A stretch of DNA of 40,058 bases from Flavobacteriales bacterium (GCA_026418175.1 JAOABX010000023.1:1-40058), one strand, 5' to 3'; counted from the first letter of the stretch, positions 2,097 to 36,288 are shown. Notes: generated from the letters alone by a model not told the origin. Program-made: numbers and translations.

Positions 2097-5000
2097 ATGG
2101 TTCATGTATTAAAAATAAGCCTCTTTATATTCTTATTGCATTTAGGAATGGCATCTTTTTCACAAAAGTCATCCGTAATGGAAATATATCAATCTGACTT
2201 TGTGTCTTATGGTAATTTTTCAGAATTGGGACTATTGATGGATGCTTTACCCTATTTTGAAGCGAAGGATGAAATACCACCATGTACTAATTGCATGGAA
2301 GTAATATCAAAACGTACCAGATTTGAAAAACACTATATAGACCCATCCGATCCTGGAAAATTTATCATCCAAAAATCATACGGACCAGTTCATTACTTAA
2401 AAAATGGAAACTGGGAACCGTTCAATTTTAAAATAACACCCAAAAATCAATACATATTAGAAACAGTTTCTTCTGATGAACCTATGGGAATTGATTTTCA
2501 GAAAAACCAATCATATATGAAGCTTTACCAGGGGAATGTAGGATTTAATAATTGGAAATTAATCGTTATAGATGCTCAAAATCAAATGGAAAAAATTGAG
2601 TTATCCGCAAATTGGGAAAAAGGCACCTCTGGAAAAGATGGTATTTATGTAAAACAGATCTTCCCTGGTATTGATGCAGAAATTACATTCAGAAACGGTG
2701 CAATTAAAACAAATTTTTTCATACAATCATTTGAATTTCCTGGATATGATGAATTGATATTTACAGATCATTTTACATTGAATGGAGCTGAAAATGTATT
2801 ATTAAAAGAAAATTCATCGATAGTAGAAGTATTATCAAACAATCATGAATCATTGTTATTGATTGAACCTGCATTTGGATATGTAAAATCAAACCCCAAA
2901 TACACAACTATAGACTTTAATTATCAAACTTCAAAGAATCAGTTGAAACTGGTAATACCTGCAAAGTGGATAACTGATAATATTCATCAATTGCCTCTTG
3001 TCATTGACCCATTGGTTACAAGTTCAAATTTTTTGGCACAAGCTTCCATCAATGGCTCTGGATACAATGCTACCTGCTTTAATGGGTTTTGCTCATATTT
3101 TTTAACAGTACCAACACCAGCTAATGCAGTACTTACAGATGTTCAGTGGTCATTTAACTATACTGCTACAGGCACTTGTTGGCTAAGTGATGGAGCTGTA
3201 AGTTTTTTCAGAGGAACGTGTAGAAGCCCTGGGAATACTAATTTTTTTTGGTTTTGTAACCTAAATTCGGGTGGCACTTGCAATGGAAGTAATATTTCCA
3301 TTTTTAATGATATTCAAACTTGCTTGCCTGCCCCATCGTGTGCACCTCAGAACGTTACTTTCGAAATGAGATTTCATCGCTGTTGGAGTGCAGGTGGCGG
3401 ATGCAGCAATTCTTGCATTGGAGCAGCATCAAATTGGACAATGACATTAACTGGAAGAACTCTTGAATTCAGCAATGCTTCAAATCCCATTTCAGTAAGT
3501 GCAACAACAATATGTCAAGGACAATCTATCAATGCATCAACATCTGGTAGTTTTGGAGTTCCAGGTTATACATATAATTGGAGTTTAAGTCCTACAGGAA
3601 CACCTTCATTAGGAAATACTGCTTCCGTTAATATTCCGTTTCCAAATGCAGGCACCTTCACGCTGTATGGTTTTGTGACTGATGCCTGCGGCAATCAGGT
3701 AACTTCTACAAGGACAATTACTGTAAATCCCAGTCCAACACCAAGCATTACAGGCAGCACATCTTTATGTCAAGGACAATCTACCACCTTAACCGCAAGT
3801 GGAGGTAATACATATTCGTGGAACACAGGTTCTACATCAGCAACAATTACAATAAATCCACCAACAACAACCAATTACACCGTAACTGTAACTGGAACTG
3901 GAGGATGCACTGCTACCCTATCCCAAACTGTACTTGTAAACCCAATACCTTCTCCTGTTATTAGCGGAACAACAAGCATCTGCAATGGCCAATCTACCAC
4001 ACTTACTGCTAGCGGTGGTTCATCGTATGCCTGGAATACAGGGGCAACTACTGCTGCTATTACTGTTAGCCCTACTTCTAATACTACTTATACTGTTACG
4101 GTTACCGGAGCTGGGGGTTGTTCTGCTACACTTTCTCAAACTGTTACAGTAAATTCTGTACCTACCCCTGTAATTAGCGGTACAACTAATATTTGCAATG
4201 GCCAGTCTACAACGATTACTGCTAGCGGTGGTTCATCGTATGCCTGGAACACAGGGGCAACTACTGCTTCTATTACTGTTAGTCCCGCTTCTAATACTAC
4301 TTATACTGTTACGGTTACCGGTGTTGGAGGGTGTTCTTCAATCAATTCAGTAAATGTTACAGTAAATCCATCTCCTAATTTTTCAATTCAAAACAATTCG
4401 GGAACAACCATAATCTCATGCAATACAGCATCTATTAATGTAACTGCTTTAGGAGCATTTAATTATATTTGGAGTAATGGATTAGGAAATAACCCTAACG
4501 TTTCTATCACTAATCCTGGTACATATACTGTTACAGCAACCGATGCCAATGGATGCAGTAGCACGCAGACGATAACCATTACGGAAGATACTTCAACTCC
4601 ACTTGTAAATGTTATAAATAATACCGGAACTTACACACTTGACTGTTCCAATACGTCTGTTTCAATTACAGCATTTGGAGGAATCAATTATTTATGGAAT
4701 GGTGGAAGCAATCCAAATTCTGCTACAAATCAGTTTTCTAATGCAGGTACTTATGAGGTAGTCGTTACTGGCTCAAATGGTTGTACTTCCACTGCAAGTA
4801 TTACAATTACAGAAGATTTTACTCCACCTATTGTATCCATTATAAACAATACTGGTTCAAACGAACTTTCATGTGTAATATCCAGTATTTCTCTTACGGC
4901 AACAGGAGGTGGCTCCTATTTATGGAGTAACGGATTAGGAACAAATTCATCTGTAATCATAACAAATCCTGGAATATATACTGTAACCGTAACAGGAACT

Positions 5001-5831
5001 AACGGTTGTACTTCAAGCGCTTCTGAAACAATTTTGCAAAACTTGAATTTACCACAGGTAGCATTCAGTGCATCAACACAAGTTGGATGCCCCATTACTT
5101 GTATTGATTTTACAGACCAATCCACATCTGCAGGTTCAAGTATTGTATCATGGAAATGGAGTTATAATGGAATAGAATTCTCAACCAATCAAAATCCAAA
5201 TTTCTGTTTTACAGAAGTAGGGAATCACACTATTTCTTTAACAGTTACCAATTCGGCTGGTTGTTCATCCACCCAATCATTACCTAATTATATTTCTATA
5301 TTGCCCCCTCCAATTGCAAGTTTTCAATTAAGCAATACATTAGTTCCAATTTCAAATCCAACTCCTAATATTATTAATTTATCAAGCGGAGCCAATACTT
5401 ACAACTGGAATTTTGGGGATGGCACCTTTAGTTCACTTCAAAACCCAATTCACACCTATGCTGATACCGGTAACTATTGCATTACCCTTTCAGTTAGTTC
5501 AGCACTAGGATGCAGTGATGAAACCAGCGGTTGCTTGTATGTTTATCCCAATTTCCAATTCTTTATCCCCAATTCATTTACTCCCAATGGAGATAAGATT
5601 AATGATATATTTATTTATTCTGGGGTGGGATATCAACCAATTAGTTTTGAAATATTTGATCGTTGGGGTAATGTTGTATATTCAATTCAAGATGTAATAT
5701 TAGGTTGGGATGGAAATCATATAGTTACAGGAAAGCCTCTACCAACTGGCACATATGTATATAAAATTGTAGTTGAAGATTATGCCAAGAAAGAATATGA
5801 ATTTATGGGTGCAGTAAATCTAATTAGGTAA
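2097..5831 (+). CDS. Large T9SS type B sorted surface protein with Ig-like and PKD repeats
   Basis: 1244 residues with a signal peptide (about residues 1-22, ending near SFSQ). Residues 30-300 form a domain I do not recognise beyond its occurrence in large secreted Bacteroidota proteins. Residues about 320-455 form a cysteine-rich module with some 11 cysteines. Three 71-residue Ig-like units (nt 3741, 3954, 4167) follow, each with a Cys-x-Gly-Gln-Ser-Thr start and a TASGG-x-x-Y-x-W-N-T-G core, then roughly 76-residue units, then PKD-like domains (NFGDG near nt 5412). The tail has IPNSFTPNGDKINDIF, FDRWGN and YVYKI motifs, the type B T9SS sorting domain. The likely role is a cell-surface or secreted adhesin-like protein. 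The ATG at 2097 is chosen because it gives a complete signal peptide. Whether it shares a transcript with the preceding gene is unclear because a hairpin lies between them. Confidence 0.93.
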   Translation: MVHVLKISLFIFLLHLGMASFSQKSSVMEIYQSDFVSYGNFSELGLLMDALPYFEAKDEIPPCTNCMEVISKRTRFEKHYIDPSDPGKFIIQKSYGPVHYLKNGNWEPFNFKITPKNQYILETVSSDEPMGIDFQKNQSYMKLYQGNVGFNNWKLIVIDAQNQMEKIELSANWEKGTSGKDGIYVKQIFPGIDAEITFRNGAIKTNFFIQSFEFPGYDELIFTDHFTLNGAENVLLKENSSIVEVLSNNHESLLLIEPAFGYVKSNPKYTTIDFNYQTSKNQLKLVIPAKWITDNIHQLPLVIDPLVTSSNFLAQASINGSGYNATCFNGFCSYFLTVPTPANAVLTDVQWSFNYTATGTCWLSDGAVSFFRGTCRSPGNTNFFWFCNLNSGGTCNGSNISIFNDIQTCLPAPSCAPQNVTFEMRFHRCWSAGGGCSNSCIGAASNWTMTLTGRTLEFSNASNPISVSATTICQGQSINASTSGSFGVPGYTYNWSLSPTGTPSLGNTASVNIPFPNAGTFTLYGFVTDACGNQVTSTRTITVNPSPTPSITGSTSLCQGQSTTLTASGGNTYSWNTGSTSATITINPPTTTNYTVTVTGTGGCTATLSQTVLVNPIPSPVISGTTSICNGQSTTLTASGGSSYAWNTGATTAAITVSPTSNTTYTVTVTGAGGCSATLSQTVTVNSVPTPVISGTTNICNGQSTTITASGGSSYAWNTGATTASITVSPASNTTYTVTVTGVGGCSSINSVNVTVNPSPNFSIQNNSGTTIISCNTASINVTALGAFNYIWSNGLGNNPNVSITNPGTYTVTATDANGCSSTQTITITEDTSTPLVNVINNTGTYTLDCSNTSVSITAFGGINYLWNGGSNPNSATNQFSNAGTYEVVVTGSNGCTSTASITITEDFTPPIVSIINNTGSNELSCVISSISLTATGGGSYLWSNGLGTNSSVIITNPGIYTVTVTGTNGCTSSASETILQNLNLPQVAFSASTQVGCPITCIDFTDQSTSAGSSIVSWKWSYNGIEFSTNQNPNFCFTEVGNHTISLTVTNSAGCSSTQSLPNYISILPPPIASFQLSNTLVPISNPTPNIINLSSGANTYNWNFGDGTFSSLQNPIHTYADTGNYCITLSVSSALGCSDETSGCLYVYPNFQFFIPNSFTPNGDKINDIFIYSGVGYQPISFEIFDRWGNVVYSIQDVILGWDGNHIVTGKPLPTGTYVYKIVVEDYAKKEYEFMGAVNLIR
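3741..4379 (+). repeat. Three 213-bp (71-residue) Ig-like coding repeats
   Basis: Units start at 3741, 3954 and 4167, exactly 213 bp apart. The second and third share long identical runs, for example across the SSYAWNTGATTA segment, while the first is more diverged. Beyond 4379 a related unit of about 228 bp takes over, judged from the valine codons at 4605 and 4833. Confidence 0.88.
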
Positions 5832-23127: not shown

Positions 23128-23770
23128 CCCGAATCATTTCACGTTTTCCGGGAGGCCCGGGCAACGTTTGTACCTCGAATCCACATGATTTTAAGGTGCG
23201 TTTTACAACCCCTTTGGCACAATAGGTTACCATGATTCCACCCGATTCGAGAAGTTCAAATATTTTAAAAAAAATTTCCTCTGTCCACATATCTGGTTGC
23301 TTTTCAGGTGCAAACGCATCAAAATATATCAGTTGAAATTGTTGCGTTGTTTTCCATTGCTGTAATGAATTATGGTGCTTCGTGAATTGAAAATGTTCGT
23401 TGAACACCACCGGAACCTCCCAGTCACTTTCATGAATTTTTAAAAATTCCTGAGCATCAACATTTAATAATTTGGCATAATTTAATGATTGATATATTTC
23501 TGCGGGAAGAGGAAATTTTTCAAGCGATGTATAATGGATTTTTCTTGGTTTTTTTTTATTTTCAAGAAGCGTTAATAATGCATTCAATCCAGTACCCAAA
23601 CCCACTTCCAACAAATTGATCGGATCAATTGAAACAGCATGTAAACCGGCTTGTATAAAAACATGCATAGATTCCTGAATAGCTCCATGCACAGAATGAT
23701 AGTGCTCATTCAAATCAGGTAAATAAATACTATGGCTGCCATCTGCTGTATAAACCAGTGTAGGTTTCAT
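23099..23770 (-). CDS. mnmD: tRNA (mnm5s2U34) methyltransferase MnmD
   Basis: 223 residues, an SAM-dependent Rossmann methyltransferase. LEVGLGTGLNALLTL is the SAM-binding motif, IYFDAFAPEKQPDMW contains the MnmD DAFxPxxNPxxW-type motif, and the C-terminal GPPGKREMIR segment is characteristic. Stand-alone MnmD lacks the FAD-dependent MnmC1 domain and completes the 5-methylaminomethyl modification of wobble uridine in certain tRNAs. The ATG overlaps the stop of the PD40 gene by one base (TAATG). Confidence 0.93.
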   Translation of the reverse strand: MKPTLVYTADGSHSIYLPDLNEHYHSVHGAIQESMHVFIQAGLHAVSIDPINLLEVGLGTGLNALLTLLENKKKPRKIHYTSLEKFPLPAEIYQSLNYAKLLNVDAQEFLKIHESDWEVPVVFNEHFQFTKHHNSLQQWKTTQQFQLIYFDAFAPEKQPDMWTEEIFFKIFELLESGGIMVTYCAKGVVKRTLKSCGFEVQTLPGPPGKREMIRVVKPKGTIL

Positions 23771-25185
23771 TAATCATCAGGATTTACAATAAATATTCGT
23801 TCTGTTTTTTTATACCCGCTGAACATTGTTTCTTCACGAATTATGCCGGGCATTTTTTGTTTAGGAGGCAAAAGAATAATGTAAATATTGTCTTGAATAT
23901 CGGTTGTAGAGCGCTTACCAGAAAATAATGCCTTAAGTCCATTGGGCAAAATATAGAGGTTATTTTCATCGCGAGATGTGTTAATTGGGAAGCCAATACT
24001 AATTGGTTTACTAAACGATAAATTCTCCCAACGGCATCTGTATATGTCGGCTCCACCCAATGAATTATGTCCTTCAGAAGTGACAAATGCAGTCTGATAA
24101 TCGCGGGTAAAATGAATGGTAAATTCATTCAAGTTTGTATTTATGATATTACCTGCGTGTTGAGGTTTTTCCCACCATCCCGCTGCATCTTTTTTGCTAA
24201 TCCAAATATCAAGCCCGCCTAATCCTCCGGGGCGATTAGAAGAAATAAATAACAAAGAATCACCAGGTCCATAACATGCATAATATTCATCAAACATTGT
24301 ATTGATGGAAGAAGGTAATAATACCGGATTAGACCATTTGTCAGCTATCCAAATACTTTCATATAAGTCCCAGGTATTTTCACGGGCTTTAGCTCGTAAT
24401 AACATGCGTTGTCCATCGTTTGAAATACCTAATGCTTCAAAACTAAAACCGGTGTAATTATCAAAAGGCAATACCTTTGCTTCGCTCCAACCCGAATCTG
24501 AAGCTACAGAAACATACATTTTAGAGACTACCTTGCCGGTTGAATCAATTTGTTTACAATTAAAAATCAACATCGACTCATCAAGCGAAAGGAAGGGAAA
24601 TGATTTATCTCCTTCTATATTTAAATTATTCGATAATCGTTCTATTCGAGTATTTACTGGATTGGATGCCATGAGTTTACCTAAACGGCTTTTTTCGAGA
24701 TAAAACAGAGCCAGTGAATCCAAGGTTTCGTTATAACCACCATGTTCCATAAATACTTGAATGTGCTCATATGCATTTTCCCATAACATTTCATAATATT
24801 CGCAAATACCCAGCCACAATGGCAGTCTGGGATCATGTTTAGTTTGTATATACCACGCATTGGTAAAAAAAGAAAGTGCCTTGTCTTTTCGATTCATTAA
24901 AAAATAAGATCTGCCTATAATAAAGTTAAGCTTTTCATTATAAGGATTAAATGCATGTACCGGTAGCAATAGTTGAATCACGGGATCAAAATTTATATCC
25001 CCGGAAGCTATTTTCTTTTCAAACAATTTATACCCGGCTTTGAGTTTCTTTTTAAAATATGCTAATTCTTTCCGCTGATTGGGGAAAGCATCTTTAGTAA
25101 AATCAACATTTTCCTGAGCAAACATCCTGCTCAGCATGATGAAATTAAATAAAAATAAACATAGTTTGATCGTTATTTTTTGCAT
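23770..25185 (-). CDS. Exported TPR plus PD40 (beta-propeller) protein
   Basis: 471 residues with a signal peptide (about 1-23, ending SRMFAQ). Residues 60-160 resemble TPR helices; residues about 200-440 contain PD40 repeats, seen in SSNRPGGLGGLDIWISKK and SLGGADIY. PD40/TPR proteins in Bacteroidota often sit in the envelope; some, with an added OmpA domain, serve the type IX secretion system. This one ends without an OmpA domain. Its first 13 bases overlap the upstream TPR gene and its end overlaps mnmD, so all three are co-translated. The specific role is unknown. Confidence 0.85.
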   Translation of the reverse strand: MQKITIKLCLFLFNFIMLSRMFAQENVDFTKDAFPNQRKELAYFKKKLKAGYKLFEKKIASGDINFDPVIQLLLPVHAFNPYNEKLNFIIGRSYFLMNRKDKALSFFTNAWYIQTKHDPRLPLWLGICEYYEMLWENAYEHIQVFMEHGGYNETLDSLALFYLEKSRLGKLMASNPVNTRIERLSNNLNIEGDKSFPFLSLDESMLIFNCKQIDSTGKVVSKMYVSVASDSGWSEAKVLPFDNYTGFSFEALGISNDGQRMLLRAKARENTWDLYESIWIADKWSNPVLLPSSINTMFDEYYACYGPGDSLLFISSNRPGGLGGLDIWISKKDAAGWWEKPQHAGNIINTNLNEFTIHFTRDYQTAFVTSEGHNSLGGADIYRCRWENLSFSKPISIGFPINTSRDENNLYILPNGLKALFSGKRSTTDIQDNIYIILLPPKQKMPGIIREETMFSGYKKTERIFIVNPDD

Positions 25186-26957: not shown

Positions 26958-27401
26958 TTATTTTTTCTCTTCAGTAGTAGCATTATCCATTTCAGTTGAC
27001 AAAGTTTCTTCTACTTGAGTAGCAGCAGAGTCTAATCCAGCGCCAAGATCGCCACCACCCATTTCTTTCTTGTCGTTTACAATCCACTTGTCACCTTCTT
27101 TAACCAACTTCAGCTTGCTGCTTCCACCTTCTTTCATACAGCAGAATGAACACTCAGCTTCGTTTTCTTTTACTTCGCACTTTACATCTTTTACTTCAGT
27201 GATTCCAGCATCGCCACCAAAGCCTTTGATGCCATCAATTTTAGCTTTAGTATCTTCATTACCTAAAGCTTTAGCTTTGTCCCACTCCTTGTTTTTAAGA
27301 GCATTCAGATACTCAGTAGCCACTTTTTCAGGACCATTACCTTTTGCACCGCAAGAAGCTAAGAAAGCGATTGCTAGTACACCAAATAGAACTTTTTTCA
27401 T
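26958..27401 (-). CDS. DUF4878-like lipoprotein
   Basis: 147 residues from ATG 27401, which begins MKKVLFGVLAIAFLASCG, a clean lipoprotein signal with lipobox LASC. The frame is open upstream but adds no plausible start. The mature part (KVATEYLNALKNKEWDKAK, then EGDKWIV) follows the DUF4878/SnoaL-like pattern of small envelope lipoproteins. A Cys-x-x-Cys-Cys cluster (ECSFCC) and an acidic tail are notable. A good promoter lies 47 bp upstream. Function unknown. Confidence 0.85.
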   Translation of the reverse strand: MKKVLFGVLAIAFLASCGAKGNGPEKVATEYLNALKNKEWDKAKALGNEDTKAKIDGIKGFGGDAGITEVKDVKCEVKENEAECSFCCMKEGGSSKLKLVKEGDKWIVNDKKEMGGGDLGAGLDSAATQVEETLSTEMDNATTEEKK

Positions 27402-27447
27402 AATTGTTAAGTTTTTGTAATTAGTTAATTTTTTGTTAAAGCGAGGC

Positions 27448-27481
27448 AAAGTAACGCATTATTTTTCAATCTGACAAAAAT
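27448..27481 (-). promoter_or_regulatory. Promoter of the DUF4878-like lipoprotein gene
   Basis: On the minus strand TTTTTG (27481-27476), a 20-nt spacer, then TTACTTTG (27455-27448): the best match to the Bacteroidota -33 TTTG / -7 TAnnTTTG layout in the window. The leader would be about 40 nt and A/T-rich. Confidence 0.7.
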
Positions 27482-27537: not shown

Positions 27538-28188
27538 TCACCTTTTACTAATAGTAAAATCAGGTTCTTCGCCTTTTATCAACCGCTTGATATTAGAGCG
27601 ATGTGTATAAAAAACCAGGATAGGATATATTAACACTAGCAGGTTATCTATGAATTGCCAGGGATTATGTATAATTATGAATGCCACTGTAAAAGCAATG
27701 CTGGCAACCAGCGAACCAGCAGATACTTTTCTGGTAATAACAAAAACCAACATGAACGTTGCAACACAAATTCCGGCTATAGCAGGATCAATTCCCAAAA
27801 TTACACCGAATAAAGTAGCCACACCTTTTCCTCCTTTAAATTTTTCGTAGATAGGATAAATATGACCAAGGGCTGCACCCAACCCTAGCAAAAGTTGGTA
27901 ATTATCTAAAAAAGCAATGCGTGGTATCAGATCAAGTGAAAAAATACGGGTAAAAATTACAGGTAATAAAACTGCTAACGTGCCTTTTCCAATATCTATT
28001 AACAACACGATGATGCCAGCTGCTTTTCCAAAAACGCGAAACGTATTGGTAGCTCCTGCATTTCCACTACCGATGGTACGAACGTCTTTTTTGAAAAAAA
28101 CTTTTCCTAACCAAATTGAAGAAGATATAGCTCCAATAAGGTACGCTAACAAGAGGTATATATAAATGTAATAATTGGTTACCAGCAT
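27538..28188 (-). CDS. plsY: Acyl-phosphate:glycerol-3-phosphate acyltransferase PlsY
   Basis: 216 residues with five membrane helices. The three PlsY motifs are visible: GSGNAGATNTFR (from about residue 40), GHIYPIYEKFKGGKGVAT, and a later loop near the C-terminus. It transfers the acyl chain from acyl phosphate to glycerol-3-phosphate, the first step of phospholipid synthesis, in the inner membrane. It starts 2 bp after the giant exported protein gene, so it belongs to the tpiA-prmA transcript. Confidence 0.95.
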   Translation of the reverse strand: MLVTNYYIYIYLLLAYLIGAISSSIWLGKVFFKKDVRTIGSGNAGATNTFRVFGKAAGIIVLLIDIGKGTLAVLLPVIFTRIFSLDLIPRIAFLDNYQLLLGLGAALGHIYPIYEKFKGGKGVATLFGVILGIDPAIAGICVATFMLVFVITRKVSAGSLVASIAFTVAFIIIHNPWQFIDNLLVLIYPILVFYTHRSNIKRLIKGEEPDFTISKR

Positions 28189-28190
28189 AA

Positions 28191-31100
28191 TTATTCCTTA
28201 TTTTCAAACATTTCTTTAAACTTATCAACTCTTCGCTGCGTACCTGGAGTAATTTGATATATCGGAAGCCCCTCTTGTTGAAATTGACGTTTATTACTTT
28301 CAAGACTACTAAGCAGTTCATTCAATTCTTTAATACCCGAATAAAACTGCATAACATTATTTCGATAATGGAAGTAATACCAATTAATATCATCAAACTC
28401 TAAGTAAATAGTAATAATATCACCGCTACTTTTTCTATTCAGTTCAATTTTTGCATTAGCTGATTTATTTACCTGATTTCCATTAAATATTAATACACCA
28501 ACCGGACCACTATAAAGTAATGAACGTTGTTTTTTATCCCATTTTAAATTTACATCGGTAAGCACCAAGGTTTTATCCAGCTCTTTTGGAATTTTTTTGA
28601 ACTTTCCTTCACTATTCAGGTTGCTGAATATTTTTTCAGCACGTGCACTATCAAGTAGCTCTACAATGGCTTTGCGGGTTTTTTCATCACTTAGGCTTGC
28701 ACCGCTGGTGCCTGCGAACTTAAACCTATCCTCCATAAATTTAAACATGGATACATCCATTTTAAAATTCACAGTAAGTAAGATATTCATTATGATGTTA
28801 TCATCAGCAGGTTCATGTACAATAGTACCTGCACATTTTAACGATACCTGGCCTAGCTTGGAACCAAGATCCATCTGGCCTTCACCATAAGAACTGCAAT
28901 TAGAGGCATTAAAGGCCAAATAATTACCCGGTAATTCTTTGTCCTGCAATTTTTCTTTTCTGGATATTCTGAATTCCTGACTTCGCTTATCAAAATGTAA
29001 ATATCCATATACATTCAACACATCATAATCGCTGTAGCGAATTTTAGAAGCTAATACTGCCGGATAAATTCCAGTTGAATCAGATGCAAATAAGAATCCG
29101 TTGTAAATCTTATTATTCTCATCATTTTCAGGTTCTTTAGGAATAGGTATCATAATATTATTGGGGTCAATTTCATTTTCAAACTTCACCCACTGGTTTT
29201 TCATATTCTTACACGGATGATTGATTTTGGTGTATCCTCTAAAGGTTAGGAAACGATTGGTTCCATATAAGTTTACACGCCCTTTGAATCCAAAATGTGG
29301 ACTTAATTGAAAATCAGATATTTGCTCTACCTGTCCCTCTCCAATGGTAATATACTTATCATCCACATCTAGTTGAGTTAAGCGTATTACTTGGGCTGTT
29401 CCAATTTCATCCACATAGGTATAATCGGCCGAACCTGAGTATTTCTTACTTGTATATACTGTTACATCAGCGTTTTTCAGCACATGAATTTTATCAGTTT
29501 TACCAACCCAAATTTCAGCACCTTGAAAAGGATCGAGTTTTCCTCCTCTTCGAATTGTTATTTTATTGTCGGACGGAAATATCCGGCTATCCGCTACATC
29601 AATATACTTTACATTTTCACAGTAAATAGTTTTACCAGCAGTTAAAAATCTGGCATTGGGAGCCACAAATGAAAGCGAATCAAGTCTTGGATCTGTAGAT
29701 ACAAACAACGCTCCTTTTAATCCTAACTCATCAATCATACTGCTATTCATATCCACTTTGCCTTGATCCATGTACCATTCAATTTCTTCAATATATGCTT
29801 TAAACTTATTAATTGGGAAATCAACAAACGATTTTTTATCATTCGTTTTTAAGGATGCTTTTCGTTCAATGTAAGTAACATTGCCTCTCACATTATCTGT
29901 TCTCATGGCTACTTGCAATGTATCAGACGCATCAAGCTGTTCGGTATTTTTCAGTATAAATTTCATTGTATCTGCCTTGAAATCGTCTGTTTTAAATCTA
30001 AATATCTTTGAATCAAAGTCTGCATTTTTTTGACTTAATACCCCATCCCCTTGTAAACCAGAAGGCGTTAAGGTTAACTTACCTTTCATCACACTTTGGC
30101 CTTCATACATCTCAAAGGCATTACCAGTTTCTTTTACTTCAAATTTTTCTTTTTTGGGTTGCCAGTGTATATACACATCTTTTGCTTTTACATCGGGTGT
30201 TTCAATTCCACCTTTGGTTTTCTTAATTCCAAATTTGTATGCCATGGCATTGGTAGAATCCGGGTAAAACTTAAAATCCCTTGACCACGCCTGTGACGTT
30301 AGATAGTCTAATTTTCCGGCTCCTCGTAAGCCTTTGTGAGATAATGTAAGTGTATCATAATACTTCCCTTTACCGCCATAAATATCCAATCCTTCATTGC
30401 TAATTTGTTTAAAAAAACCTAAGGAATAATCTTCCATTACTTTTAGTTCTTCCCTTAGATCTTGAAAAATTCCATCCGACACAAATGTTCCTTTATATCG
30501 AAGCGAAGTTGTATGAAACCTATCCAATGTATCCGTCCTAAATGGATCTAATGCAAAATAAAAACGATCCTTTTTATAGACCCCTTTTTCTACTGAGGGA
30601 TATTCATAAAATACATAAGATGTTTTATTGCTGATTAATGAAGGATATTGAGGAAAATCCTTCGATTTTAATCCAGATTTATTCCCCGGATGATCAACAA
30701 GTAATTCTCCGCTCAGGTCTTGTATTATACTTTTTACATTGACTGTATCATATACTCCATATTCATTCTTTTTAAAAGCATTCACTACAAACTCTACTTT
30801 CTGTACATCCTTTAATTTGAATTTAAAATCCTTGTACAAAAAATTAAAATTACTACCGTGTATGGCCGCTTTGCCGGCGGCTATAACCCCGTTAAATTTA
30901 AAATCCAGGTCTTTTAAAATAGTTACTTCACGTTGATATGGTAATATTTCAACCATTTGAGAATCACTGATAGCAACCCGGTTTACACCTTTTAAGTCTA
31001 ATCGAAAATCCATTAAACTTAATTTTCCAATCTCTTCGTTCTTACCCACTTTTGATTCAAATTCAATAATATCATAATCTGTTCTTCGGGCAGATGAATT

Positions 31101-32666
31101 TATCATGTGATAAAATCTGTCATTTATAAATCCTGTTTCTGTATCTATATTATATGCTATTAAACCTTCAATGGCAAATCGCATAAGCAACTGACGAGCC
31201 GAAGTTAAATCTGCTTTAATGTATTTGGCATAATCAATCGCTTTAAATGATTTTTGATTGTTATTTTTTTCTCTTAAAAATAAATTTAATTTAACCAGCG
31301 GATGTTGTTCATCAAGCCCTTGCATTCGTTGATATTCTACATCGTTGAAATAGTTAAAAGATCTGAACCTACCAATTCCTTGAGCACTGGCTAATGTAGT
31401 GGAAAGACGCATTAAAGGCTCATTAAGCTTCCAATAAACAGCATCTACAAACCATTGAAGTTTATGAAAAGTATCATAAAAAGGAGATTGTATTGTCCCT
31501 TCTCCAATTCTGAATAAATTTACTTCTCTTTTTTCTTTTAAAAACTTAAATTCTAATCCAGGATGATAAATACTATCATTTTCGCCTATATATATAACAA
31601 TTGCTGCACGAATGGATGAAATTTTATCATCATCAATCATAAAATTTTTTGAAGATGCTTTCAAAAATATTTTTCCATCTTTTTTAAAAGCAAACTGAGC
31701 CAAATTAATACTATCCCCTTTGCCTATAAATTTATTTCCATGGAATGAAAAACCTCCAACATAATCCACATCCGGTACAATGTTTTGAATTGGAAATATT
31801 TTTACATACGAATCAAATTTTGGATACTTGTAATCTACACCCTCTACCTGATTTGTGAGTTTTTCTTCTAGCCTTCCCATCATTGGGGCATTTGTATAAT
31901 TTGTATTTACAAAGAATACAGAATCGGCCGAAAAGGTTGAACGTTTTACTGAAATTTGATAATGATTTAGATCAGCATACACTTCATTTTTGGGAATACG
32001 AAGGCGTGTCCAATAAACTCTTCCTCCTTTGCCATAGAAAATTTCATCCTGGGGATAATATATTCCGCTTGTATTTTCGATTAAAGTAGAATCATCTTTT
32101 CCAATACATTTAAGATTAATAGAAGAATATTTGATAACTACCTTTTCATCTTCAAATCCAAAATTCCAGGCATTGCTTTCGGTAAACCAAGTGTGCCCTG
32201 TTGATTTATACAGTGCATTATACTTAAATAAATCTGAAGATGCTTCCAAATAATTGACCAGATAGTTTCCGCTTTTCTTTTTAATCATCCATAACAGCCC
32301 TTTTTCCCAGATATCAAATTGAGGTTTGGGCTTTTGGCAATGATAAAAATCCATCACAGCCTGTATATAGGGTTTGAAATGGGTTCCTGCAAGGAACTTT
32401 TTTCGCTTCATTTCATTACAAAATCCTATGACCTGATTTTTGTACACATCAAACGGGCCTTCTTTCCAAACTGTTTCAAATTCTTTCATAAAGTCTTTCA
32501 TTTCCTTGCTGTTTTGCCCTTCCATCATAAACTTTTCAAATACATCAAAAAACTGTGTTGGGTCAGAAGGAAAATCTTGTGCCATCACATTGGAGATTCC
32601 CCATGCAAATAGCATGAAGAAAATACCCCATTTCAAACCATTTTTTTTAAAATAAGTAATACCCAT
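28191..32666 (-). CDS. Giant exported protein of unknown function
   Basis: 1491 residues that I do not recognise. The N-terminus GITYFKKNGLKWGIFFMLFAWGISNVMAQ-like region is a signal peptide (cut after about residue 30); an internal ATG at 32615 is a less likely start because it drops the basic part. The rest is hydrophilic and predicted beta-rich, without membrane helices, cysteine clusters or a T9SS tail. Two segments about 90 residues apart (near 772 and 862) share LTL-x-x-x-GL-x-G-x-G-x-L, suggesting an internally repeated beta-structure. It overlaps prmA by 34 bp and precedes plsY by 2 bp, so it is firmly within a core-gene operon. An envelope role is inferred from the signal peptide only. 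Confidence 0.88.
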   Translation of the reverse strand: MGITYFKKNGLKWGIFFMLFAWGISNVMAQDFPSDPTQFFDVFEKFMMEGQNSKEMKDFMKEFETVWKEGPFDVYKNQVIGFCNEMKRKKFLAGTHFKPYIQAVMDFYHCQKPKPQFDIWEKGLLWMIKKKSGNYLVNYLEASSDLFKYNALYKSTGHTWFTESNAWNFGFEDEKVVIKYSSINLKCIGKDDSTLIENTSGIYYPQDEIFYGKGGRVYWTRLRIPKNEVYADLNHYQISVKRSTFSADSVFFVNTNYTNAPMMGRLEEKLTNQVEGVDYKYPKFDSYVKIFPIQNIVPDVDYVGGFSFHGNKFIGKGDSINLAQFAFKKDGKIFLKASSKNFMIDDDKISSIRAAIVIYIGENDSIYHPGLEFKFLKEKREVNLFRIGEGTIQSPFYDTFHKLQWFVDAVYWKLNEPLMRLSTTLASAQGIGRFRSFNYFNDVEYQRMQGLDEQHPLVKLNLFLREKNNNQKSFKAIDYAKYIKADLTSARQLLMRFAIEGLIAYNIDTETGFINDRFYHMINSSARRTDYDIIEFESKVGKNEEIGKLSLMDFRLDLKGVNRVAISDSQMVEILPYQREVTILKDLDFKFNGVIAAGKAAIHGSNFNFLYKDFKFKLKDVQKVEFVVNAFKKNEYGVYDTVNVKSIIQDLSGELLVDHPGNKSGLKSKDFPQYPSLISNKTSYVFYEYPSVEKGVYKKDRFYFALDPFRTDTLDRFHTTSLRYKGTFVSDGIFQDLREELKVMEDYSLGFFKQISNEGLDIYGGKGKYYDTLTLSHKGLRGAGKLDYLTSQAWSRDFKFYPDSTNAMAYKFGIKKTKGGIETPDVKAKDVYIHWQPKKEKFEVKETGNAFEMYEGQSVMKGKLTLTPSGLQGDGVLSQKNADFDSKIFRFKTDDFKADTMKFILKNTEQLDASDTLQVAMRTDNVRGNVTYIERKASLKTNDKKSFVDFPINKFKAYIEEIEWYMDQGKVDMNSSMIDELGLKGALFVSTDPRLDSLSFVAPNARFLTAGKTIYCENVKYIDVADSRIFPSDNKITIRRGGKLDPFQGAEIWVGKTDKIHVLKNADVTVYTSKKYSGSADYTYVDEIGTAQVIRLTQLDVDDKYITIGEGQVEQISDFQLSPHFGFKGRVNLYGTNRFLTFRGYTKINHPCKNMKNQWVKFENEIDPNNIMIPIPKEPENDENNKIYNGFLFASDSTGIYPAVLASKIRYSDYDVLNVYGYLHFDKRSQEFRISRKEKLQDKELPGNYLAFNASNCSSYGEGQMDLGSKLGQVSLKCAGTIVHEPADDNIIMNILLTVNFKMDVSMFKFMEDRFKFAGTSGASLSDEKTRKAIVELLDSARAEKIFSNLNSEGKFKKIPKELDKTLVLTDVNLKWDKKQRSLLYSGPVGVLIFNGNQVNKSANAKIELNRKSSGDIITIYLEFDDINWYYFHYRNNVMQFYSGIKELNELLSSLESNKRQFQQEGLPIYQITPGTQRRVDKFKEMFENKE

Positions 32667-33472
32667 GGCGCCAATATTTTTTCTTTAATGAAACGAAAAT
32701 TATATTCTTCAGCGTATTTAATCACAACATCTTTGTCGTGCTCCATGATACCACTTAACCACAAATGTGTACCGTTATCTGAAAGACGATCGTAAAGAGG
32801 CATTTGCTCAAGCAACACATTTCGCTGAATATTTGCAATGATAAGTTCGTAAGTTCTATCCAGCTTAAATTCATCCAGCAAAAATACCGATACTTGACTA
32901 CACTGATTAAGTGAAATGTTTTCAATACTGTTTTCTACACATTGTGAATCAACATCCACTGCATCTACCTTAGCAGCTCCCAGTTTTTCAGCCAATATAC
33001 CTAAAACAGAAGTACCACATCCCATATCAAGTACCTTCAAACCCACCGGTGGTTGAACAACAAGTTCTTCTAAAATCAGGCGGGTAGTGGCATGATGGCC
33101 TGTACCAAACGACATTTTGGGTTGAATTACCAATTCATAAGCAAATGAAGGGTCAGGGGGGTGAAACAAAGCACGTACACGAACTTGTTTGTTAATTTCA
33201 ACGGGTTGAAAGGCAGACTCCCACGCTTCGTTCCAGTTCTGATGAGGAATTATTTCCCTTGATACCTTGGCAATCTGAGAATGATGTAACAACTGATGAT
33301 ACAATTCCTGATTATCTAACTCTTGCTGAATGTATCCGATTAGCCCATTTTCAATTTGTTCAAAACTCTCAAAAGGCAAATCTTGTAATTCAGCCAATAA
33401 CATGTCAGAGGTTTCTTCTGCTGACAAACCTTGCTTTACTCTAGGTATAAGGGTATAAGCTACATAGTTCAT
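32633..33472 (-). CDS. prmA: Ribosomal protein L11 methyltransferase
   Basis: 279 residues, typical of PrmA. FGTGHHATTRL (about 122-132) and the SAM motif VLDMGCGTSVLGILAEKLGA identify it, with IANIQRNVL holding the NPPY-like position. It trimethylates ribosomal protein L11. The start overlaps the tpiA stop by four bases (ATGA), and the tail overlaps the next gene by 34 bp. The glycine usual after GCGT is Ser here. Confidence 0.93.
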   Translation of the reverse strand: MNYVAYTLIPRVKQGLSAEETSDMLLAELQDLPFESFEQIENGLIGYIQQELDNQELYHQLLHHSQIAKVSREIIPHQNWNEAWESAFQPVEINKQVRVRALFHPPDPSFAYELVIQPKMSFGTGHHATTRLILEELVVQPPVGLKVLDMGCGTSVLGILAEKLGAAKVDAVDVDSQCVENSIENISLNQCSQVSVFLLDEFKLDRTYELIIANIQRNVLLEQMPLYDRLSDNGTHLWLSGIMEHDKDVVIKYAEEYNFRFIKEKILAPWVLLILKKMV

Positions 33473-34227
33473 TCGGCAGCATGAATGATAGTAACAAAAT
33501 CCAAAGCATTCAAAGAAGCTCCTCCAACTAATCCGCCATCTATGTCCGGTTTATTAAATAAGTCTTTGGCATTATCAGGCTTTACACTTCCACCATATAC
33601 TATTCGCACACGAGCTGCTACTCCATCACCGTATTTCTGCTTTATAAGTTCACGAATAAATGCATGTACTTCCTGCGCTTGATCTGGAGTTGCTGTTTGC
33701 CCGGTACCAATGGCCCAAACAGGTTCATACGCAATTGCAACCTGATTCATTTGTGTAGCATCGAGATGAAACAAAGATTCTTCTAACTGCTTTCGGATTA
33801 CTTCCCTGAAATTACCTTCCATTCGTTGATCCAAGGTTTCTCCGCAGCAAAACATAACAAGCAATTGTTGAGATAATGCTTGATCTACTTTTTGTTTTAA
33901 TATGGTATGATTTTCATGATAATATTGCCTGCGTTCAGAATGACCCACCAATACCCACGATACATCAATGGAACGAAGCATAAACGCAGCTACTTCACCT
34001 GTAAAAGCACCTTTTTCATGATTGCTACAATTTTGTGCACCTACACTAAAAAAAGGAGAAACTGAAACTTCCTTTTGAAGGGTAGTCAAATGAACAAACG
34101 GAGCAAAAAAAATTACTTCCCGGTGTTCATTAGCATGAGCTGTTTCCATCACTTGCCGAGCTAAAGTCAACCCTTCATCGGGGGTTGTATGCATTTTCCA
34201 GTTACCCGCTACAATTTTTTTTCTCAT
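33469..34227 (-). CDS. tpiA: Triosephosphate isomerase
   Basis: 252 residues. Catalytic residues are at Lys11 (GNWKM), His96 (VGHSERR) and Glu168 (AYEPVWAIGTG); the phosphate loop YGGSV and GGLVGGASL are present. It interconverts dihydroxyacetone phosphate and glyceraldehyde 3-phosphate in glycolysis. It is the first gene of the tpiA-prmA-unknown-plsY run. No clear promoter was found in the 118-bp gap shared with the divergent thioesterase gene. Confidence 0.97.
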   Translation of the reverse strand: MRKKIVAGNWKMHTTPDEGLTLARQVMETAHANEHREVIFFAPFVHLTTLQKEVSVSPFFSVGAQNCSNHEKGAFTGEVAAFMLRSIDVSWVLVGHSERRQYYHENHTILKQKVDQALSQQLLVMFCCGETLDQRMEGNFREVIRKQLEESLFHLDATQMNQVAIAYEPVWAIGTGQTATPDQAQEVHAFIRELIKQKYGDGVAARVRIVYGGSVKPDNAKDLFNKPDIDGGLVGGASLNALDFVTIIHAAE

Positions 34228-34794: not shown

Positions 34795-36288
34795 TTGAAA
34801 AAGCTCACCATACTTATGATCCGTTCTTACCTGGGTCCATTTGTATTGACCTTTTTCATTGCTCTTTTTGTGCTGGTGATGCAGTTTTTATGGAAGTATA
34901 TTGACCAATTGGTGGGTAAAGGCCTGGAATGGAATATTATCCTTGAATTATTATTTTATGCATCAGCTACTTTGGTTCCTATGGCATTGCCCTTGGCAAT
35001 ATTGCTTTCTTCCATTATGACCTTGGGGAGCTTTGCTGAAAACTTAGAGCTGGTAGCTGCTAAAGCTGCTGGTATTTCACTGCTTCGAATTCTGCGACCG
35101 CTGATAATGTTATCAGCACTCATTAGTTTGGGAGCCTTTTTATTTGCTAATTATGGCATGCCCGTAGCTAATTTCAAACTTAAATCTTTACTTGTTTCCA
35201 TTCAACGCACTCGCCCTGCCATTGATATTCCGGAGGGTACATTTTATGATGGTATTAAAGGTGCTGAGATATTTGTAGAAAAAAAAGAATCTGATGGCAA
35301 ATCATTTCAAAATATACTTATATACGACCACACCAAAGATACATATGGCGCCGGTAGTGTTGCCATGGCACGTCGGGGAAGCCTTTCGATGAGTGATGAC
35401 CAACGTTATTTGATATTAAAACTTTACCAGGGTTTGCGTCTCGATGACCGAAATTTTTTTACCCGCGAACGAGAAGGACTGCCATTATATCGCGAAGTAT
35501 TTAGCGAACAACATATTTATTTTGATTTATCCGGTTCAAAATTTACCCGCAATGATGAAAGTGTAATTCGCAACCAATATTCCATGATGACGGTGGGGCA
35601 ACTGGATAAAGTTAATCTTGAGTTACATGAAGACCTCAATAATTCCATTAAGTTTACAGCCAAATTCATGCAAGAATTAAGTGCCGTTAGAAAAACTGAA
35701 CCCCAACAAGGCATGTATCAAGAACAATGGGATCCTCAACTCATGAACTTTTTAGAAACTGCCGATTCAATAACGGAACGAAGAAAAATCACGTCAGTTA
35801 ATTTTCAAAATGGTAAATTTTTATCCGGATATACCGAAGAAGAAAAAGCCCTTATACGGCAAAGCGCCCGTCAATCAGCAGAAGATATAATCAATAAACT
35901 GGAAGAACAAAAATCCATCATCAAAGCCAAGAAAATGCAAATTGCCAAAAACAGGGTAGAATATCATCGCAAATACTCTTTGTCATTTGCTTGTTTTATT
36001 TTGTTTTTTGTAGGAGCCCCCTTAGGAGCAATTATTCGTAAGGGAGGTTTGGGCCTGCCACTCATATTTTGTATTGTTATTTTTATCATTTACTATGTAA
36101 TCAGTACCATTGGTGAAAAAGCTGTACGACAATTGGCCATGGAACCTTTTGAAGGCATGTGGCTATCATCATTCATTTTATTTCCGTTTGCATTATTCCT
36201 TACATTAAAAGCCTCAACTGATTCACCTTTATTTATTGCTGAAACTTATACCAAATTCTTGCAAAAACTTGTACGAAGAAAAAAATAA
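34795..36288 (+). CDS. LptF/LptG family permease (YjgP/YjgQ)
   Basis: 497 residues with three N-terminal helices (about 12-36, 52-75, 98-120), a periplasmic beta-rich domain, and three C-terminal helices (from about 395). The motifs ATLVPMALPLAILLSSIMTLG and LELVAAKAAGISLLRIL are typical. In LPS export LptF/LptG form the inner membrane channel of the LptBFG transporter. The start is TTG at 34795 because KKLTILMIRSYLGPF is the family N-terminus; the first ATG at 34816 would lose it. The glycosyltransferase reading frame overlaps its 3' end. Confidence 0.93.
   Translation: MKKLTILMIRSYLGPFVLTFFIALFVLVMQFLWKYIDQLVGKGLEWNIILELLFYASATLVPMALPLAILLSSIMTLGSFAENLELVAAKAAGISLLRILRPLIMLSALISLGAFLFANYGMPVANFKLKSLLVSIQRTRPAIDIPEGTFYDGIKGAEIFVEKKESDGKSFQNILIYDHTKDTYGAGSVAMARRGSLSMSDDQRYLILKLYQGLRLDDRNFFTREREGLPLYREVFSEQHIYFDLSGSKFTRNDESVIRNQYSMMTVGQLDKVNLELHEDLNNSIKFTAKFMQELSAVRKTEPQQGMYQEQWDPQLMNFLETADSITERRKITSVNFQNGKFLSGYTEEEKALIRQSARQSAEDIINKLEEQKSIIKAKKMQIAKNRVEYHRKYSLSFACFILFFVGAPLGAIIRKGGLGLPLIFCIVIFIIYYVISTIGEKAVRQLAMEPFEGMWLSSFILFPFALFLTLKASTDSPLFIAETYTKFLQKLVRRKK

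Follow-up and report, generated by a model that had tools for sequence, protein, structure and literature searches.

A giant exported protein encoded beside prmA in Bacteroidia is predicted to contain three segments with the beta-taco fold of Lpt proteins

The 40,058-nucleotide stretch of DNA analysed here in its entirety (hereafter the window; Flavobacteriales bacterium, GCA_026418175.1 JAOABX010000023.1:1-40058) contains on its minus strand, at 28191..32666, an open reading frame (ORF) of 1,491 amino acids with an ATG start, whose product we refer to as the giant protein. The ORF overlaps the upstream gene prmA by 34 bp, its stop lies 2 bp from plsY, and tpiA precedes prmA with an overlap of 4 bp. 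A preliminary description of the window had given the reading frame, the prmA overlap and the plsY gap exactly as we find them, and had portrayed the gene as 'locked' into a tpiA-prmA-plsY operon. Scans for promoters and terminators returned the same counts as in shuffled sequences, and operon limits are not definable that way; a search of Rfam found no element.

In a sample of 80 loci from public genomes, prmA lies directly upstream of the giant gene in 53, commonly with tpiA next, and plsY lies directly downstream in at least 31, the starts and stops of the neighbouring genes often overlapping or falling within 10 bp of each other. The adjacency to prmA is kept in distant families, even at 26% identity of the giant protein, and the trees of the giant protein and of prmA agree (Mantel r of 0.85 over 49 loci, against 0.26 for the best of 999 permutations); the two genes have therefore been inherited together, vertically. 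In two genomes without the giant gene (L163 and L166) its slot is empty, and prmA and plsY adjoin each other with 98 and 68 bp between them; other genomes without it keep tpiA-prmA followed by unrelated genes. The word 'locked' is thus too strong and only partly right. In f15, f20 and f29, families whose other members carry the gene, some genomes lack it, absences that repeated loss would explain better than transfer.

The giant gene was found in 38 of 40 relatives of the window's genome (this genome included), nearly always as one full-length copy with 26-89% identity, and in all 16 genomes of the same order. Two wider samples were drawn, one of 395 genomes across the class Bacteroidia and one of 198 genomes, the majority isolate-grade, across the phylum. 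The gene is present in 324 of the former (159 of 196 genera) and in only 10 of the latter; it is thus a feature of most little-studied branches of the Bacteroidia and nearly absent from the sampled, mostly isolate-grade genomes. The families without it may be well-studied ones, probably with the Flavobacteriaceae among them. Against the nearest relative dN is 0.061 and dS is 1.34, and purifying selection on the gene is therefore strong; conservation runs along the whole length in an alignment of 23 relatives. In the closest relative (L002 / L031) the second-last codon of the ortholog is a TAG in frame, which shortens the product by only two residues and is likely harmless. These orthologs constitute a real, conserved, single-copy family. 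We found no description of it in the literature, subscription papers being outside our reach, which is not proof of absence; within the literature searchable, the family appears to be undescribed.

Searches of sequence libraries gave little to build on, as the preliminary description had anticipated in recognising no family. Pfam and NCBIfam returned no family for the 1,491-aa protein even at E ≤ 10, and PDB sequences no meaningful match; the same three libraries gave nothing meaningful with its relatives either, and PHROGs nothing strong with the single protein; sequence matches to FimG and to antibodies were dismissed as chance. The N-terminus was more informative: a hydrophobic stretch resembling a signal peptide is present in all 78 family sequences, in agreement with the earlier claim of export, and export is accordingly predicted. 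A cleavage pattern of the A-x-A-Q type in 52 of the 78 suggests, at the level of sequence, that the signal peptide is cleaved, and a lipobox occurs in none of them. No sorting domain of the type IX secretion system (T9SS) was detected in the giant protein with Pfam or NCBIfam, again as first described, whereas another protein of the window does match TIGR04131. Of the 78 family sequences, 70 end in E, D, Q, N or K, and the modelled C-terminus is a helix, with no barrel assigned.

Structure prediction had been proposed as a check in the preliminary description. AlphaFold was run on two overlapping pieces (residues 28-950 and 546-1491) with alignments of 74 sequences, and gave a mean pLDDT (per-residue confidence) of 90.6 and 89.7, respectively. 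Among the PDB matches found by Foldseek at E ≤ 0.001, LptD accounted for 10 of 10 in the case of the first piece and for 3 of 5 in the case of the second, and there were weak matches to ApoB100 and the LPD-3 complex, which are lipid carriers as well. On structural alignment with VIA-align, LptA, LptC, LptH and the N-terminal domain of LptD fit three separate segments of the giant protein at Z of 9.7-11.6, with a root-mean-square deviation (rmsd) mostly of 2.5-3.7 Å over 120-160 residues. Peak Z was 11.6 for residues 284-554, 9.7 for residues 556-746 and 11.2 for residues 810-1041, whereas unrelated sheets scored lower (8.8 for CPAP TCP10, below 7 for axonemal proteins and about 5 for OspA). 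The predicted three-segment beta-taco fold is thus well supported by the models, and the elongated structure of the lipid- or lipopolysaccharide (LPS)-bridging kind that had been proposed from the sequence is supported at the level of the fold (three Lpt-like segments, Z 9.7-11.6), transport itself being an extrapolation from that fold. The coordinates of these and the other features are collected in Table 1.

Table 1. Features of the giant gene and its immediate neighbours in the window (residue numbers refer to the giant protein).
Feature	Position	Strand	Basis
Giant exported-protein gene, whole ORF	28191..32666	-	Family of single-copy orthologs
Signal peptide, residues 1-30, cleavage predicted near ..VMAQ	32577..32666	-	Sequence
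N-terminal six-helix region, residues 36-149	32220..32561	-	AlphaFold model, DSSP helices (model 9-122)
Predicted beta-taco segment I, residues 284-554, split by winged helix	31005..31817	-	VIA-align Z 10-11.6 (LptD N-domain, LptA, LptC, LptH)
Predicted winged-helix (MarR/Rio2-type) insert in beta-taco I, residues 439-531	31074..31352	-	VIA Z 8-9.2; weak wHTH Pfam matches of relatives
Predicted beta-taco segment II, residues 556-746	30429..31001	-	VIA Z 9.7 to LptD 8h1r_A
Predicted beta-taco segment III, residues 810-1041	29544..30239	-	VIA Z 10.5-11.2 (LptC 6mit_C, LptA, LptD)
Further amphipathic beta-strands, residues 1046-1300, no fold assignment	28767..29531	-	AlphaFold model, DSSP; strand amphipathicity
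C-terminal helical insert, residues 1305-1348	28623..28754	-	AlphaFold model
C-terminal beta domain with helix at end, residues 1367-1491; without aromatic C-terminus of outer-membrane protein type, without T9SS tail	28194..28568	-	AlphaFold model; family C-termini; Pfam, NCBIfam
prmA, ribosomal protein L11 methyltransferase, conserved upstream neighbour	32633..33472	-	PF06325
tpiA, triosephosphate isomerase	33469..34227	-	PF00121
plsY, glycerol-3-phosphate acyltransferase, frequent downstream neighbour	27538..28188	-	PF02660

Two elements of the model, the N-terminal helical domain and the inserted winged helix, had not been foreseen. The winged helix, at residues 439-531 within the first taco, shares its fold with MarR and Rio2 proteins (PDB 2pex, 3vb2 and 1tqi) at Z 8-9.2, and different family members weakly match several winged helix-turn-helix (wHTH) models of Pfam, a finding that is independent of the structure models. 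Unlike its MarR and Rio2 counterparts, this domain sits in an exported protein and has a near-neutral charge (mean +0.7); DNA binding is therefore unlikely, and the domain is probably a protein-docking module. The part from residue 1046 to the C-terminus, as modelled within the second piece rather than alone, is mostly beta-stranded apart from a helical insert, and no fold is assigned to it. The motif LTLxxxGLxGxG, in which the preliminary description had seen a hint of an elongated repeat, is real and can be read twice in the sequence (LTLSHKGLRGAG and LTLTPSGLQGDG); comparison of the profile with itself places this repeat about 91 residues apart (755-788 versus 846-879; hhalign, probability 87%, E 3.8e-6). 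The motif belongs to a beta-meander, and as it occurs in two copies only we rejected it as the sign of a long tandem array.

Along the strands, hydrophobic and polar residues alternate far beyond what is seen in shuffles (z of -5.8 at lag 1 and +5.6 at lag 2). This alternation fits a lined groove, but any amphipathic sheet would show the same, and the strands could instead serve as a spacer. The giant protein would then have a structural or scaffolding role: elongated in shape, it would connect complexes of the periplasm or the outer membrane, for instance with PorE-like proteins linked to peptidoglycan, and would carry no lipid, the winged helix being its docking site. Parts of the beta-meander do match sheets that have no role in transport, such as those of CPAP TCP10 (Z 8.8) and OspA (Z about 5), but the Lpt matches mostly have a higher Z with a good rmsd (2.5-3.7 Å over 120-160 residues). 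The gene neighbourhood bears on the same question. The window encodes, at 23770-25185 (-), a TPR-PD40 protein without an OmpA tail whose relation to PorE / CHU_0125 scores below curated cut-offs. In 20 of the 80 loci the giant gene is followed on its own strand by PorE-like TPR-PD40 genes; 57 of the 80 extend for 5 kb or more downstream. In some lineages these downstream homologs are giant ORFs themselves (1,400-2,300 aa), and both of those that were scanned (L087:12517-18132 and L057:6881-13849) contain PD40 and SPOR domains. Such neighbours are suggestive of a shared envelope task; we treat the link as a lead only, because PorE-like genes are common (16 matches in the window's genome) and the 20 positive loci are confined to few lineages. 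For these reasons we judge the scaffold explanation unlikely.

The resemblance to LptA, LptC and LptD raised the possibility that the giant protein is itself an Lpt component, i.e. an extra-long LptA/OstA bridge that joins LptC to LptD for LPS export in the lineages that bear the gene. Three segments are predicted to share the beta-taco fold of LptA/LptH and the LptD N-domain (PDB 2r1a, 2r19, 4uu4, 8h1r and 9ia5) at Z 9.6-11.6 and an rmsd of about 3-3.7 Å over 119-158 residues, the LptC periplasmic domain (PDB 6mit_C, 3my2 and 4b54) resembles segment III at Z 11.2 and segment I at Z 10-10.9, and, akin to LptA, the giant protein is predicted to be soluble, with a cleavable-looking signal peptide and no anchor. 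LptC, in contrast, is short and inner-membrane-anchored, and the giant protein differs from LptA and LptD in being many times the length of LptA, in its N-terminal helical bundle and inserted winged helix, and in having no assigned barrel, no match to their profiles in Pfam or NCBIfam and a gene neighbourhood of its own. An LptF/LptG permease gene (PF03739) does occur in the window (34795-36288, +), near the tpiA operon but divergent from it; most relatives do not encode the giant gene with lpt genes. Neither linkage to lpt genes nor their replacement was found, the neighbours being tpiA, prmA and plsY, and the genome separately encodes OstA_2, LptD_2 and TamB, in addition to LptF/G inside the window. 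OstA_2 is present in 39 of the 40 genomes tested, both with and without the giant gene, and so does not track it. Because linkage to lpt genes and their replacement are lacking and sequence homology is not shown, we did not file the giant protein as an Lpt component, a role that we consider very improbable. A replacement of LptD, OstA or TamB was likewise rejected, all three being present, and the giant protein therefore adds to the Lpt and TAM systems rather than substituting for either.

The AsmA superfamily offers another precedent, and a divergent member of it could move phospholipids or aid the assembly of outer-membrane proteins as an AsmA/TamB-type bridge or chaperone. Its members (TamB, YhdP, YdbH; Bacteroidota TamB, PMC12045153) resemble the giant protein in size (1,400-1,600 aa) and in having beta-taco or repeating beta-groove folds of the envelope type, TamB and TamL are essential in Flavobacterium johnsoniae (PMC12045153), and plsY, a gene of phospholipid synthesis, often adjoins the giant gene. 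Yet neither the TamB C-terminal domain (PF04357) nor AsmA was matched with Pfam at E ≤ 10, an hhalign comparison with a Bacteroidota TamB profile (run with no positive control) gave no signal above the reversed control, and the fold matches go to Lpt proteins; that no TamB or AsmA chain appears among the fold matches listed carries no weight either way. The known AsmA-like proteins of Escherichia coli, moreover, have an inner-membrane anchor (PMC12045153); no such anchor was seen in the giant protein, whose signal peptide looks cleavable. TamB is encoded in all of the 40 genomes tested, whether or not they carry the giant gene, and so has not been replaced. With neither a Pfam nor a profile signal, the giant protein was not filed with AsmA/TamB, and we regard membership as unlikely.

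The explanation that we favour, tentatively and at a little less than an even chance, is that the giant protein is soluble in the periplasm and acts there as a bridge or chaperone of the beta-taco type, serving as a conduit for lipid or for another amphipathic cargo. Judging by the models, it probably folds like an Lpt beta-taco protein and works likewise, and the Lpt beta-taco fold has been tied to the transport of amphiphilic molecules (PMC10353723). After removal of the signal peptide, a helical N-terminal bundle would be followed by a long succession of amphipathic beta-strands. Three or more stretches of these, each about the size of LptA, would fold as half-pipes of the LptA/LptC/LptD-N kind, with the winged-helix module in the first of them as the likely docking element. 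The strands would form the lining of a hydrophobic groove in which the apolar part of the cargo is sheltered as it crosses the periplasm. The cargo would be an envelope lipid or glycolipid, or with lower probability an outer-membrane protein still nascent, and its route would run parallel to the canonical Lpt and TAM systems of the same genome. We infer that the groove is continuous and that it transports lipid, as we do the docking by the winged helix, the cargo and the partners. Single tacos of Borrelia measure 42 Å (LptC), 55 Å (LptA) and 53 Å (LptD-N) (PMC10353723), and at least three tacos in one chain could therefore span the periplasm.

Several results weigh against this explanation. 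The pTM scores of the two pieces (0.71 for residues 28-950 and 0.57 for residues 546-1491) leave the overall path of the groove uncertain, whole-model TM-scores are low, the match being limited to segments, and a shared fold is no proof of transport. The absence of a signal above the reversed control with the TamB profile, described above, belongs here as well; hhalign to the OstA_2 profile was also no better than its reversed control, a comparison that is uninformative since LptD of this genome, used as the positive control, failed too. Finally, an LptF/G gene lies near the giant gene in the closest relatives only, which gives no direct link to lpt genes, and entire families lack the giant gene although their outer membrane is complete.

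Further genes of the window were noted in passing. Downstream of plsY lie a gene for a YiiX-type permuted papain-like amidase (PF05708; 26252-26983, -) and, beside it, one for a small lipoprotein-like protein that belongs to no family (26958-27449, -), a pair that is kept after plsY in 8 of the closest loci. A 1,244-aa protein encoded at 2097-5831 (+) has a type B T9SS sorting domain (TIGR04131), which suggests that T9SS cargo exists in this organism.

The passage of lipids other than LPS across the periplasm has long been an unanswered question, and recent advances have come mostly from AsmA-like proteins of Proteobacteria. The furthest-reaching form of our proposal, which we think rather unlikely as a whole, is that the giant protein is an undescribed lipid-transfer bridge that spans the periplasm with several fused beta-tacos and a regulatory or docking winged helix in a single polypeptide, and that it provides a third trans-envelope route beside Lpt and TAM, ancestral in the Bacteroidia and lost in well-studied families (probably including the Flavobacteriaceae). 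The protein is nonetheless large, conserved and unannotated, with a predicted fold that belongs with known lipid carriers, and its near-absence from the mostly isolate-grade genomes sampled would explain why a family model is lacking. It offers a concrete gene with which to probe for a bound lipid, and its natural losses allow comparison.

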